Shown here piece by piece: positions 6,275 through 24,621 of a DNA stretch of 64,000 bases; within the stretch, counting starts at the first letter, position 1; the number at the start of each line of letters is the position of its first letter. Source of the DNA: Synechococcus sp. CCY 0621. GTDB lineage: Bacteria; Cyanobacteriota; Cyanobacteriia; PCC-6307; Cyanobiaceae. Below the pieces are notes generated by a model, which made no database searches, had not been told where the DNA came from, and was given only the letters and a program-made list of their open reading frames with translations. The position numbers and the translations under genes are program-made. Location: positions 62,001-126,000 of the forward strand of contig NZ_JAFKRH010000015.1 in the NCBI RefSeq assembly GCF_019038465.1. Direction: 5' to 3'.

Positions 6275-7291
6275 ATGGCGACTGGATGGACGGCATCCAT
6301 GAAGGAGTCCAGCCAGTCCCCTCTCGTCAGCATCATCGTACCCAACTACAACCATGCCGCCTTTCTCAGCGAACGTCTGCGATCCATTCTCAGCCAGACA
6401 TTTCAGAATTTCGAGCTGATCGTCCTGGATGACGCCTCCACGGATGATTCCCTGGCGGTGATCCGGGAGCAACTGCAGGACCACCCTCACCAGGTGTTCT
6501 GTAACGCGACCAACTCAGGCCAGCCCTGCTCGCAATGGCTGAGTGGAATCAAGAAGGCTTCAGGGCGCTACATCTGGATCGCGGAGTCGGATGACAGCTG
6601 TTCGCCGAAGTTTCTCGAGCGAATGGTGTCCCATCTGGAACAAGGCAACGTACTGGCCTACTGCCGCACCACTTCCATCGACGCCGCAGGCGCACCACTC
6701 GCCGACCAAAGCTTCTGGCCAGATGCCGTTGACCCCGACCGTTGGCAGCACTCCTTCAGGATCCAGGCTGAGGACCTATGCCGTGACTTCATGGATCGGG
6801 GCAACGTCATCGCCAATGCCAGTGGCGTGGTCTTTCGCAAACCTGATGAGGCGATTCTTCAAGCACTGGGACCGCTGACAGCCCGCCGGCGCTGCACCGG
6901 TGACTGGCTCTTCTGGACACACTATCTGATGCGAATGGGTGGATCGGTGAGCTTCGACTCTGAAGCGCTGTCCTGTTTTCGTTGCCACGACCAGAGCACC
7001 CGCAGCATCGACAGTCGCCGCCGGGAAAGGCTCCGCTTCGGCGAGTACTCCTCCGCCATCGCCTCGGTTCTGAAGATCACAAGGCCATGGCCCCGCTGCC
7101 ATTGGCATGCCGTGGCCACCAGTGGTGGCTGGGACTGGATTCTGTATGAATACCTCTGGCGCTACAACCCATCACGAGCCGAAAAGCTCTGCCTTTCAAT
7201 CATCCATGGCCCCCTGCGCCTGGGGATCTACGCACGGCTGCTGCAGTCCCAGATTCTGCGGCGGCGTTACTGGAGCTGGCCCACCAGCTGA
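6275..7291 (+). CDS. Family 2 glycosyltransferase
   Basis: Predicted GT-A fold inverting glycosyltransferase of 338 residues that transfers a sugar from a nucleotide donor, probably in surface polysaccharide synthesis. The N-terminal segment VSIIVPNYNHAAFL, followed by LDDAST and an ESDDS metal-binding-type motif near residues 104-108, is typical of GT2 enzymes. No membrane helix is evident. ATG 6275 is preceded by a strong AGGAGG. It lies 73 bp upstream of a GT4 gene on the same strand, and the two may act on the same glycan. The base composition is a little lower in GC than the sdh genes. Acceptor and donor cannot be inferred. Confidence 0.85.
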   Translation: MATGWTASMKESSQSPLVSIIVPNYNHAAFLSERLRSILSQTFQNFELIVLDDASTDDSLAVIREQLQDHPHQVFCNATNSGQPCSQWLSGIKKASGRYIWIAESDDSCSPKFLERMVSHLEQGNVLAYCRTTSIDAAGAPLADQSFWPDAVDPDRWQHSFRIQAEDLCRDFMDRGNVIANASGVVFRKPDEAILQALGPLTARRRCTGDWLFWTHYLMRMGGSVSFDSEALSCFRCHDQSTRSIDSRRRERLRFGEYSSAIASVLKITRPWPRCHWHAVATSGGWDWILYEYLWRYNPSRAEKLCLSIIHGPLRLGIYARLLQSQILRRRYWSWPTS

Positions 7292-20374: not shown

Positions 20375-21052
20375 TCAGCCTCCCACCACCAGGGCGTCGA
20401 CAATCTCGTAGCGCTCGACGTTCTCCCGAAGCAGCAGCACCGACACATCTCCGCGCCGCTGCACCGAGAGCTTCTCGGGCTGGTTGGACGCGACGGCCTT
20501 GCCCTTCACGAACAGGAACTGGCGTTTCTGGCCCTCGGGGTTCATCACCAACACCGTGGCGCTGTTGCCGGACCCACAGGGCACATCCGCGGAGGCGTGG
20601 TACGGCGTGCCTGGGATCAGCGCGTCGCGGGACGCGGGCACGGGGGCCAGGGGAGCACCACTGATACCCACTTTCAAGCTGAAGGTGCTCGTTTCGGTGC
20701 GGCGCGTCGCCGGACGCATCAGATACACCCTCACCCTGACGTCCCCATCGCTTGGCAAGGGCCCACGGAAGCGGTTTCCTGAGCTGCTGCCGATGAACAG
20801 GGCGGTGTCGGTCCCGGCCGCCATCACATTGAAGTAGCTCTGCGCGTTGGAACACTTGAGTTCCACGGTCAGGGCCTGACCGGCGCCGGCCCGCAGCTTG
20901 TAGTCGACGGTCAGGTCGCCCTTGAGCAGGGTGGAATCAGCTCCAGCTCGAAACGTGACCCTTTGACTCTCGATCGCGGTCGCCATTCCAACCCCAGCTG
21001 GGAGGCTGATGGCCAGAAGGCCAACGACTGCTAAGGCGAGTGGCGTACGCAT
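20375..21052 (-). CDS. Exported PliG-like protein
   Basis: A 225-residue protein with a signal peptide (about 1-25, ending near MATA). Its domain resembles the periplasmic family that includes the g-type lysozyme inhibitor PliG. The pattern DYKLRAGAGQ, YFNVMAAG, FIGSSSGNRF, DVRVRVYLMRPATRR is the basis for this. Two cysteines in the mature part could form a disulfide. The C-terminal ~70 residues are beta-rich and not recognised. ATG 21052 is preferred over an upstream in-frame ATG at 21082 because it directly precedes the signal peptide. Function as a lysozyme inhibitor is inference; many such proteins are annotated only as hypothetical. It lies 29 bp upstream of the nuclease-like gene and is probably co-transcribed with it. 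Confidence 0.6.
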   Translation of the reverse strand: MRTPLALAVVGLLAISLPAGVGMATAIESQRVTFRAGADSTLLKGDLTVDYKLRAGAGQALTVELKCSNAQSYFNVMAAGTDTALFIGSSSGNRFRGPLPSDGDVRVRVYLMRPATRRTETSTFSLKVGISGAPLAPVPASRDALIPGTPYHASADVPCGSGNSATVLVMNPEGQKRQFLFVKGKAVASNQPEKLSVQRRGDVSVLLLRENVERYEIVDALVVGG

Positions 21053-21268
21053 CGGTCCTTTGCTCGGGGCCAAAGCAAACACTACCGCGCTTGCCCTGGC
21101 GAGCGTATCTGATTATCTATGGAAACACGGGATGGGCTAATTCAAAATTGTAAAGAATAGTCGATTGGGCTCTCGAGGTAACCCTGCTATTCACCTCCCG
21201 TAGAGACTCGACAATATGCAGGCAACATCTTTTCGATCGGCTGCCTGGGCATGCCGTGAGGATGGCAG

Positions 21269-22054
21269 TTACCCGACCAAGGTATGCCATCTAGACGTGT
21301 AAGCCCTACAAGTCCGCATTAGCATCTCTTGATACTGAGAGTCGATGTTAATTCCAAACACATTTTCTCGCTCGACTCGCGGAGGGTTGATGTTGTCAAC
21401 AAAGACTGGCTCGATAAGAAGATAGTCGAATCCTAGTTCGTGTGTAAAGCCTTTCTCCTTAACTGGAAGAGACCTCATCATTTCTATTGTTTTGAATGCA
21501 GCGTCTTCGGAATTTGGTTTTGCTCCAAACTCGGACCAGAGCTTCTGATCACCAGAGGAAAGGCGTGGCAACACATCACGTTCAAAGTCTACCCCCAGAA
21601 TCTGGCACTTGCGCTTCACAGAATCTGGGATGTTGACGTACTGAATTCCGGTACCCACAAGAACATGTCCCAATACAATTGCTTCAGGCTTCCTGGCTTG
21701 CAGGAGATTAGCGAAATCAGATAGATCACTTTGCCTATTTCTCCTGTTCTTGCCATGTGCCGTTATAACTGACTTGTTTTCCATGCACAATCGCGCTCGA
21801 TCGAGAGTAGGCGCGTCATCACTGCCATCTACTTCATAGATCATGAGATCGACTTTATGAGTTAATCCCGAAACCTCTACATTAAGTTGATACTGAACTC
21901 TGGAGTTTTCAATGTCATCAGCAAGGGAAGGGCACTGCTGCAGTAAGTCCAAAATGAAATGATTGCAAATTATATCTGAATGACGAGCAGATCTGTGGTC
22001 ATGATACTTGTCCATGAGAATTCGCTCAACAACCCTATCCGCTGGAGTAATCAT
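21269..22054 (-). CDS. Probable type II restriction endonuclease, PD-(D/E)xK type
   Basis: A 261-residue protein not recognised as a named enzyme. It shows a plausible PD-(D/E)xK nuclease core: Asp69 in HKVDLMIYE and Glu92-x-Lys94 in MENKSV, separated by a loop. Its start overlaps the 3' end of the methyltransferase gene as ATGA, the classic coupling of a restriction-modification pair. Base composition is near 45% GC by counting sample lines, against about 70% in the flanking genes, so it was probably acquired horizontally. It could instead be another DNA-cleaving defence protein, but the context strongly favours restriction. Confidence 0.7.
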   Translation of the reverse strand: MITPADRVVERILMDKYHDHRSARHSDIICNHFILDLLQQCPSLADDIENSRVQYQLNVEVSGLTHKVDLMIYEVDGSDDAPTLDRARLCMENKSVITAHGKNRRNRQSDLSDFANLLQARKPEAIVLGHVLVGTGIQYVNIPDSVKRKCQILGVDFERDVLPRLSSGDQKLWSEFGAKPNSEDAAFKTIEMMRSLPVKEKGFTHELGFDYLLIEPVFVDNINPPRVERENVFGINIDSQYQEMLMRTCRAYTSRWHTLVG

Positions 22055-23474
22055 GCTACTTTTAGCACATCGACACTCATTAGCTGCTTCACTTGGAGAG
22101 AGCTTAGATTTCTATCGTTCTCTGTTGGCAGAATTTGAGCCAATTCTGCGGGTATCGGAAGCCGTTTAAGCACTGAACTCTGAATTCTAAAAAAGCCATT
22201 GGCAGCCCGCTGGGCATTGGCAGATATCCAAGCCTTCACTGGATCTGAATTTAGATACTCTGCTATACGATATATTTGACCAGGGTGCGTGGGAACTATA
22301 TAGTAAACTGAATGTCTCGGCACCACTAACCCGTCTTTGTCTATCAAAACACAGGGTTGTCAGAAATATCTTTACAAAGAATCTTTGGACGTAGTAGTTC
22401 AGCCATCTGCGGAGCATCATGAAAAGCATGCCATGGCTTGCGCTGTGTACAAGAGCGCAGAGCGAGCTTCGATTTAATTTCAGGCCGCTTGAGGTAGTCG
22501 CCCAGCTCACCAATCTCCTCAAGACATTTTAGTCGGGACTCTGCCGAATAAGGAATCAGCATGACCGATGATGTCTTGACTTTAGATGATGTTGGCTGCA
22601 ATTGACGGCCCGAGATGGTCGGCCAAGCATGTTGTTCAAGATACTCTGGCAAGTCTTCTGCATTTTTCACGAAGACACCATCAGCCCCTGTGGCGATGCC
22701 ACAACTAATTCTGCGGCATATACTTTCCAAACAAAGGGAGCCAGCTACTTCGGGCGGTTTATCATTCGAAAAAAGATGCCGCCAACTCCCGCCACTCTTT
22801 GGTAGCAACACAGGGAAACTAGCACCATTGCGAGTCTGAATCTGCGTATGTTCGCCTACATTAGAAATTCTTAGCCTGGAGATAGTGGGGTAGGTAGTTC
22901 GCCCAGGAAACACGTCCTCTTCAAGAAGGGTAATATCGGTTACATCATGCGATGCAAGTAGTTTTCGAACCTCAGACCCTGCCTGGACATATGTGTACTT
23001 CTCCGGTGTGATGAAAACAAGCGTTGCCCCTTTCCGGCCAAGCGAGACTGCTCTTTCAAAAAAAAGCATATATAAATCAAATCGACCAACGGCGCACTTG
23101 TAACGTGACCGAAATCGCCGCTTTTCTTCCTCTTTAAGAGCCAAAATCGAAACATATGGTGGATTTCCAATGATGAAGTCAAACAATCCTTCAAATTCGT
23201 CAAGCAGAAAGTCACCAGTGACGATTTCAACTTGTGGGACAGCCAAAAACTTCTGCCTTGCAATATCAGCTCTTTGCTTGTCAAGTTCAATGCCTACGAT
23301 TTGGGGAACTTCGGCATGGTGACGTTTGCACCACCTCAGTATTCCCTCGATAAAGGCACCAAGACCACAACCGGGATCAAGAACCCTGTCTGTAGCCTTC
23401 GGCCTGTTGTTCTTAAAGAGCATATCCACCATCTGATCAACGGTGGACTGTTGTGTGGGCACGAAGCCGCGCAT
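22051..23474 (-). pseudogene. N6-adenine DNA methyltransferase (TaqI-like), frameshifted
   Basis: Gamma-type adenine methyltransferase of a restriction-modification pair. The first reading frame (22344-23474, 376 residues) has the AdoMet motif DPGCGLGAF (33-41) and the catalytic NPPY (104-107). It ends at a TGA just after the run TTTT. The continuation (22051-22347, about 98 residues) is in the -1 frame and carries the expected C-terminal family segment with PRHSVYYIVP, AEYLNSDPVKAW and QRAANGFFRIQSSVLKRLP. One extra T, or a -1 slip on TTTT, would join them smoothly (NPV-F-L-IDKDG). It may be a real lesion, a sequencing error or a slippage site. The target recognition part is mostly in the first piece, so residual activity is possible. 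The sequence is AT-rich like its partner. Confidence 0.8.
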
Positions 23475-23837
23475 GCTACGCCCTCTGATGGGGAGATCTT
23501 AGCCGGAACGACAGGTCAGTTCGATCTGCGCAGCGAGGGTGCCTCCAAATCAAACGGAGGAGTTGGAGAATCCCTTGGTTTAATTTGCCCCAACACTTCT
23601 TGGGAGGAATCATCTAAGTGTAGATCTTTCAGCCTTGGGAAGCATAAAAGCGAGCTGCTCTGAGGGCAACGCCGCCAAAGCCTTGACATGGTCTGGGTTC
23701 ACCACTTTGCACTACTTAATCCCGTCGACTTAGGCAGAACCCTCGAAACACCCTGCTGCCGTGGTGGCCCAACCTGGCCATCCGTAAACACCCCATCCAA
23801 GGACTGGCTGAACCCCGGGCGCCCGCGGACTTGCCGA
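23475..23837. other. Intergenic, nothing recognised
   Basis: These 363 bp lie between the methyltransferase start and the HEPN gene. They mark the return from AT-rich to GC-rich sequence (around 23700-23800). No convincing gene, tRNA or repeat was found. The promoter of the restriction-modification operon should lie in the first part, but no clear hexamers stand out. Confidence 0.5.
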
Positions 23838-24209
23838 TCAACCGAGTCCCGCCACAGCCCGCTCACATCGTTCCAGTTCGACCTCCAGCAGGGCCAGAAG
23901 CTCCGATCGCTCGGCCGGCAGTGGGAAGGGGCCTGCCTCGTAGCGGGCCTCCACGGCGAATTCCTGCAGCGCCGCCAGGCGGGGCTCCAGAACCTGTCCC
24001 GCCACAGCGGCCAGGTCGCTCAGCTCATGCACCCGTGGTGGCCGGCGATCGCTCAGCACGATCCAGGCCTTGAGCAGCTTCTCCACCACCTGCTGGGCGG
24101 TGAAGCCCCAGTCCTCCTCCGGATACGCAGGATCGAGCCCGATCCGCAAGGTCCTCAGATGGCGGCCCACGATCGCCAGCAGCAGGGCCGCGTCCTCAGC
24201 CGGCGACAT
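23838..24209 (-). CDS. HEPN domain protein
   Basis: A small all-helical HEPN protein of 123 residues. FTAQQVVEKLLKAWI (about 36-50) and RPPRVHELSDL (about 56-66) match the HEPN family. The latter contains an Rx4H arrangement (Arg56, His61) of the kind used by HEPN ribonucleases. It lacks the RX4HXY tyrosine seen in HepT toxins. ATG 24209 is chosen; it overlaps the 3' end of the nucleotidyltransferase gene by 14 bp, so the two are translationally coupled. Such pairs act as toxin-antitoxin modules in some bacteria; in others their role is unknown. Confidence 0.8.
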   Translation of the reverse strand: MSPAEDAALLLAIVGRHLRTLRIGLDPAYPEEDWGFTAQQVVEKLLKAWIVLSDRRPPRVHELSDLAAVAGQVLEPRLAALQEFAVEARYEAGPFPLPAERSELLALLEVELERCERAVAGLG

Positions 24210-24621
24210 AGAGCACCTTCCCCTCGCGGGCCACATCGCCGAACACGTGCCAGCGGGAGCCACTCAACCGTTCCGCGTCGGCGGCCCCGGCCACCACCAG
24301 GTCGACCCTGACGCCGAGGGGCCCGAGGGCCCCTCGAAAGCGCTGCCAGCAGGCGGCCTTCTCGGCGGGGGTGAGCTGGGCACGGCCCACGATCACCGCC
24401 AGATCAAGATCGGAATCGGGGCGCGCCTCGCCCCGGGCCCGCGAGCCGAACGCCAGCACCGCCTTCACCTCGGCGTCGGCACAAAGCCGTGCCAGGGCAA
24501 GGCGACAGGCCTCCGGATCCAGCCCGGGGCCGAGATCCGGCAGCGCCGCCAGCCCCCGGGGCTCACGCCAGGGAATCGCGGGCGGTACGAACGGCTGTGC
24601 GGAGGCGGAGACCATGGCCAA
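24196..24621 (-). CDS. MNT-type nucleotidyltransferase
   Basis: A minimal nucleotidyltransferase of 141 residues with the polymerase-beta-like motif LAFGSRARGEARPDSDLDL (about 57-74). It includes the GS pair and the metal-binding Asp71 and Asp73. Minimal nucleotidyltransferases of this kind pair with HEPN proteins; in the studied MntA-HepT system the enzyme AMPylates the HEPN toxin. Here it is the first gene and overlaps the HEPN gene. The N-terminal ~25 residues are proline-rich and look non-conserved, so the true start may be later. Confidence 0.82.
   Translation of the reverse strand: MAMVSASAQPFVPPAIPWREPRGLAALPDLGPGLDPEACRLALARLCADAEVKAVLAFGSRARGEARPDSDLDLAVIVGRAQLTPAEKAACWQRFRGALGPLGVRVDLVVAGAADAERLSGSRWHVFGDVAREGKVLYVAG

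Follow-up and report, generated by a model that had tools for sequence, protein, structure and literature searches.

A one-base lesion in the TaqI-like methyltransferase gene of a predicted Type II restriction-modification system in a Cyanobium-like cyanobacterium

The window analysed here, a stretch of 64,000 nucleotides, contains on its minus strand a methyltransferase gene whose frame is broken and, overlapping its end, a putative restriction endonuclease gene whose frame is intact (Table 1). This raises the question of whether the break is real and, if so, how the host survives next to its own nuclease. The nearest named relatives, as judged by the methyltransferase gene, are Cyanobium sp. 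CH-040, a Cyanobium bin and Microcystis elabens FACHB-917, and the host is a Cyanobium-like cyanobacterium.

Table 1. Positions of the restriction-modification genes and associated features in the window
Feature	Position	Strand	Basis
Low-GC (0.48) restriction-modification island, about 2.6 kb, approximate bounds	21177-23807		Synteny with genome G004 and others
Predicted PD-(D/E)XK restriction endonuclease, 261 aa, frame intact	21269-22054	-	Gene order, alignment, model
ATGA, overlap of methyltransferase stop and endonuclease start; predicted translational coupling	22051-22054	-	Sequence; NTGA in relatives
C-terminal remainder of the methyltransferase, -1 frame, 98 aa	22051-22347	-	TaqI_C, tblastn continuity, invariant residues
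GATGTG upstream of the endonuclease start	22066-22071	-	Anti-Shine-Dalgarno duplex energies
Premature TGA, then TAG	22344-22346	-	Junction alignment of 15 relatives, which have TGG ATA (Trp-Ile)
N-terminal 376 codons of a TaqI/Eco57I-type N6-adenine DNA methyltransferase, ending at TGA	22344-23474	-	

The break in the methyltransferase gene

The 376-codon frame spans the catalytic domain, with the NPPY motif and a match to the Eco57I domain (PF07669, 2.9e-21 in Pfam), and the first part of the target-recognition domain. On the minus strand it ends with ...GAC AAC CCT GTG TTT TGA TAG, where the run TTTT occupies positions 22349-22346 and its fourth T is the first base of the TGA. What remains of the TaqI-like target-recognition domain is encoded in the -1 frame, and the relatives, which are unbroken here, bear out the preliminary description of a one-base frameshift that divides the gene. 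In all 15 relatives that span the junction, drawn from Cyanobium, Chloroflexota (Dehalococcoidia, Ardenticatenales), Actinomycetota, Myxococcota (Myxococcaceae), other Proteobacteria and archaea, the two matched segments are separated by a single codon in one frame, as against two bases in the window. Judged by this alignment, the split is not due to chance. The codon is TGG in 14 of the 15 relatives, TAC (Tyr) in one and TTG in none, so that the junction of the relatives reads TT(T/C)-TGG and that of the window TTT TG-ATA. Since the relatives carry TGG, the lost base is a G and not a T; as aligned, it is one G of the Trp377 codon, and the T run is incidental. The preliminary description had named one missing T, and had taken TTTTT in the reads as the sign of a sequencing error, which is the wrong base, the relevant string being TTTTGG. 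With the lesion, the junction sequence is TTTTGATAG, and if the lesion were an error the intact sequence would be TTTTGGATAG.

A -1 slip on TTTT, also suggested earlier as a repair, fails on the position of the codons: the TTT in the P-site covers the first three Ts, and a -1 shift would put the tRNA-Phe on GTT. With the zero-frame TTT in this position a +1 slip is possible, which leads into the wrong frame, and a -1 slip is not. The junction (CCT GTG TTT TGA) lacks an X XXY YYZ slippery heptamer, and because TAG directly follows the TGA, readthrough is no remedy either. Phase variation was considered and rejected, as the junction is, by eye, free of tandem repeats and long homopolymers and all relatives are in frame. 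According to the preliminary description, a C-terminal piece that normally stands alone would do away with the frameshift; the family alignment shows no such state, with a single frame in 15 of 15 relatives and a separate gene in none. A second intact copy of the methyltransferase is absent from the whole 3.23-Mb, 101-contig genome, in which the gene has one DNA match.

Both pieces can be placed in the family at the protein level. The N-terminal piece matches M.TaqI at 1.6e-15 (phmmer) and is 38-92% identical to the intact relatives. The C-terminal piece is 86% identical to the C-terminus of the intact copy at locus L030 and 39-78% identical to the same segment in other relatives; on its own it matches TaqI_C (PF12950) in Pfam at 2e-4, under the curated cut-off, which the domain passes in the intact relatives L028 (2.3e-7) and L043. 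In structural alignments, a model of the intact L028 protein (pLDDT 86) corresponds over its length to M.BseCI (Z 29.9 over 435 residues) and M.TaqI (Z 27.7 over 364 residues). By sequence and by this model, the family shares with these two enzymes, which combine Eco57I with TaqI_C, a catalytic domain followed by a C-terminal recognition domain. It differs from them in that the identity in the structural alignment is only about 22-23%, and in that the specificity domain of the window copy is not within the same chain, having been cut off by the frameshift.

The segment lost from the 376-residue product comprises 97 residues, 17 of which are invariant across 12 diverse family members (G382, P386, H388, S389, Y391, Y392, P395, L408, W416, L417, Q422, A424, R430, Q432, S433, L436 and P440). 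In the L028 model, the frame breaks after residue 376, where a strand of the recognition domain (376-379) begins. The truncated enzyme is probably inactive, because of the loss of these invariant positions and the break inside a strand, and the modelled position of the break would count against activity of the truncated and the split form alike. That the 376-residue enzyme is itself still active is hardly credible: its catalytic domain and NPPY motif are complete, but it has lost the end of the recognition domain and with it the residues that are invariant from the cyanobacterial relatives to archaea.

It is also very unlikely, although a shade less so, that the two pieces are both translated and reassemble into a working split adenine methyltransferase that counters an active endonuclease. 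A TTG start overlaps the TGA as TTGA at the junction, the C-terminal piece keeps a dN/dS of 0.12, and both two-polypeptide C5 methyltransferases and complementation between inactive fragments are known (PMC3404938). However, no Shine-Dalgarno sequence precedes the TTG, the break falls within a beta strand in the model, the enzyme is a single chain in all 15 relatives, so that a two-gene state like that of M.AquI is not conserved, and a precedent for an adenine enzyme was not found in PMC3404938. M.AquI, a natural two-subunit cyanobacterial methyltransferase, resembles the case only as considered here, with the methyltransferase in two polypeptides; it is a cytosine-5 enzyme, whereas the split in the window is a lesion confined to one genome.

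The endonuclease and its dependence on upstream translation

The 261-aa product downstream is best read, from gene order, alignment and a structural model, as the cognate restriction endonuclease, and the pair as a Type II restriction-modification system by predicted function. D69 (strand 68-74) and E92 with K94 (strand 87-97) lie on neighbouring strands of the model (pLDDT 88) and are invariant in 10 sequences. PD-(D/E)XK nucleases lead the list of structural matches in VIA-align (BbvCI 8.5, NucC 8.2, BsoBI 7.2, SgrAI and EcoRI 6.9), which agrees with this fold though at middling Z values; the best E-value in Foldseek is 0.037. No meaningful sequence match that names the endonuclease family was found in Pfam (best 0.066), NCBIfam, PADLOC or the PDB sequences. 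The methyltransferase and the endonuclease occur in the same order in Cyanobium, Chloroflexota, Actinomycetota and Lysobacter (loci L028-L035, L038 and L039). At L032 (975-1889), a late frame change lengthens the endonuclease past its normal C-terminus to 304 aa. At L037 only a remnant of the endonuclease (6368-6540) follows the methyltransferase, and at L036, L040, L041 and L043 this endonuclease is absent downstream, with other ORFs adjoining the methyltransferase in the latter three. An exchange of partners at the methyltransferase is possible in these five loci.

The overlap between the methyltransferase stop and the endonuclease start is kept as NTGA (ATGA, TTGA or GTGA) in other Cyanobium, Chloroflexota and actinobacterial loci. 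At the site of GATGTG in the window, L028, L029, L030 and L032 have a Shine-Dalgarno-like GAGGTG or GAGGTA, in which the GAGG precedes the endonuclease start by about 11 nt, and L031 has GAGATA. The best duplex with the anti-Shine-Dalgarno sequence has an energy of -1.2 kcal/mol in the window and of -6.9 to -10.8 kcal/mol in the four loci; L031, a close relative, likewise has a weak endonuclease Shine-Dalgarno (-2.7 kcal/mol). The weak site of L031 and the limited use of Shine-Dalgarno sequences in cyanobacteria both count against the silencing proposed below. So would a second promoter inside the methyltransferase gene, which is possible, although the sole minus-strand match near the endonuclease start, at 22029-22001, falls shortly after that start, within the endonuclease gene, and matches are about as numerous as chance would give.

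Frameshifted translation stops 289 nt short of the endonuclease start. Ribosomes that halt there could no longer re-initiate by coupling, the untranslated stretch of mRNA would be open to transcriptional polarity, and the endonuclease appears to have no evident ribosome-binding site of its own. The lesion therefore offers a route by which both genes might be lost at once, since with the nuclease start overlapping the methyltransferase stop the same frameshift is expected to lower expression of the nuclease. In the PvuII system, a frameshift in pvuIIC lowered the expression of pvuIIR about fivefold via transcriptional polarity, and the C/R overlap itself was not translationally coupled (PMC2997769). 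The lack of coupling at that overlap counts against the reading given here. The two systems are alike in that the endonuclease gene overlaps the end of an upstream gene in which a frameshift lowers, or here would lower, endonuclease expression; they differ in that the upstream gene in PvuII is a regulator and its effect is one of transcriptional polarity and not of translational coupling. The lesion probably silences the endonuclease as well, as suggested by the sequence and by this analogy, and a silenced nuclease would explain the survival of the host. The preliminary description was right that the endonuclease frame is intact beside a broken methyltransferase, but its assertion that such a state is normally lethal overlooks the ATGA overlap.

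Survival could also be explained if the endonuclease were active and the host sites were shielded by another methyltransferase of overlapping specificity. The genome encodes three more Eco57I-type enzymes, on contigs C21 (593 aa), C10 (1478 aa) and C11 (640 aa). Only the enzyme on C21 is matched in a search with the methyltransferase, at 29-35% identity over parts of its length, and there is no sign of shared targets, which makes such protection highly improbable.

Recent inactivation or sequencing error

The explanation that we consider most likely, and rank above a sequencing error, is that an acquired restriction-modification system was recently switched off; its probability is, in our estimate, a little better than even. 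A horizontally acquired two-gene Type II system, consisting of a gene for a TaqI-like adenine methyltransferase and, after it, one for a PD-(D/E)XK endonuclease, would have lost one G from the Trp377 codon. The 376-residue product would be inactive for want of the end of its DNA-recognition domain, and the cell would survive because the endonuclease falls together with the methyltransferase.

The dN/dS values between the window and L030, all within the range of pairs of relatives, are 0.13 for the N-terminal part of the methyltransferase, 0.12 for the segment past the lesion and 0.06 in the endonuclease. As these substitution patterns indicate, the endonuclease is under strong purifying selection. 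Since the rest of the operon also appears to be under purifying selection, with no long decay, the lesion is either recent or an error. A flawless remainder is what a sequencing error would predict too, which counts against inactivation. An assembly error, already named in the preliminary description, was therefore kept among the explanations: TGG would be truly present, the methyltransferase intact and the system working. We regard this as a serious possibility, though one with less than even chances. In its favour, the endonuclease and both methyltransferase parts are intact under normal purifying selection, the operon has no other lesion, and the similar cases of MjaVI (shown) and MjaIV (inferred) have been ascribed to sequencing error (PMC3488263).

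Against an error stands the rarity of such events in this assembly. The frameshift rate was estimated on one contig of 269 kb, of which 198 kb could be aligned with G004, the closest relative found, whose identity around the island is 94-96%. A comparison of 163 ORFs from G004 (61,650 aa) with the contig gave four frame-split candidates, which upon inspection comprised one clean single-base indel, one possible second and others in divergent stretches. The clean case (G000:C15, about 216300, near 216.3 kb) affects a 453-aa protein, and neither of the two genes with a clean or possible indel has a Pfam match. A census of indels at the DNA level agrees, in that most non-triplet indels in called genes form compensating groups or lie near gene ends, and the contig contains no N characters. 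Clean single-base frameshifts thus number one or two per about 185 kb of coding sequence relative to G004, and indel errors occur at a low rate, no more than about one per 90 kb of coding sequence. Furthermore, the site is a GG pair and not a long homopolymer, and a contig of 230 bp kept in the assembly suggests an isolate draft rather than a bin.

Inactivation of this kind would be an ordinary event of a known and already catalogued type. Ershova et al. 2012 listed 74 full-length endonucleases beside corrupted methyltransferases; the MjaVI frameshifts among such cases were sequencing errors and the one in MjaIV was probably so (PMC3488263), which provides precedent for both a real lesion and an error. 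Those cases share with the window the full-length endonuclease, the corrupted adjacent methyltransferase and the intact orthologous systems elsewhere, and nothing in kind sets them apart; in the present case the lesion is pinned to one base, and operon polarity is proposed as the reason for survival. Should the lesion prove real, it would be a clear example of a single base in the antitoxin-like gene shutting down a restriction-modification system while the host stays alive, and would suggest that overlapping genes, with the methyltransferase placed before the endonuclease, make such an operon a fail-safe. Beyond this case the lesson is modest, as such cases have been catalogued and some turned out to be sequencing errors.

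Acquisition of the island and its surroundings

Genomes with endonucleases that are 91-93% identical to that of the window are only about 81-85% identical to it at acnB, while G004 is 96% identical at acnB and yet lacks the restriction-modification system. An endonuclease more alike than acnB, together with the absence of the system from G004, indicates that the system was horizontally acquired. No viral copies of the system were found, and a plasmid search gave no match to the endonuclease and only distant methyltransferases.

The same site holds unrelated DNA in seven relatives (G004, G025, G013, G041, G006, G018 and G008), where the alternative cargo includes a DUF2806 protein, a Schlafen/AlbA_2 protein, an HNH nuclease and others. 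A site with such variable cargo is possibly a defence hotspot. It is flanked by a gene for a putative secreted protein (20375-21082, minus strand) and by a HEPN-domain gene with an adjacent MNT-type nucleotidyltransferase gene (23838-24621, minus strand), which lie directly beside the island and are arranged as in HEPN/MNT toxin-antitoxin pairs. The metagenome-derived sequences L030, L031 and L032 all break off at position 1, within the methyltransferase gene, and in two of them the end falls on codon 152; strain variation may be the cause, or a repeat at which assembly halts.
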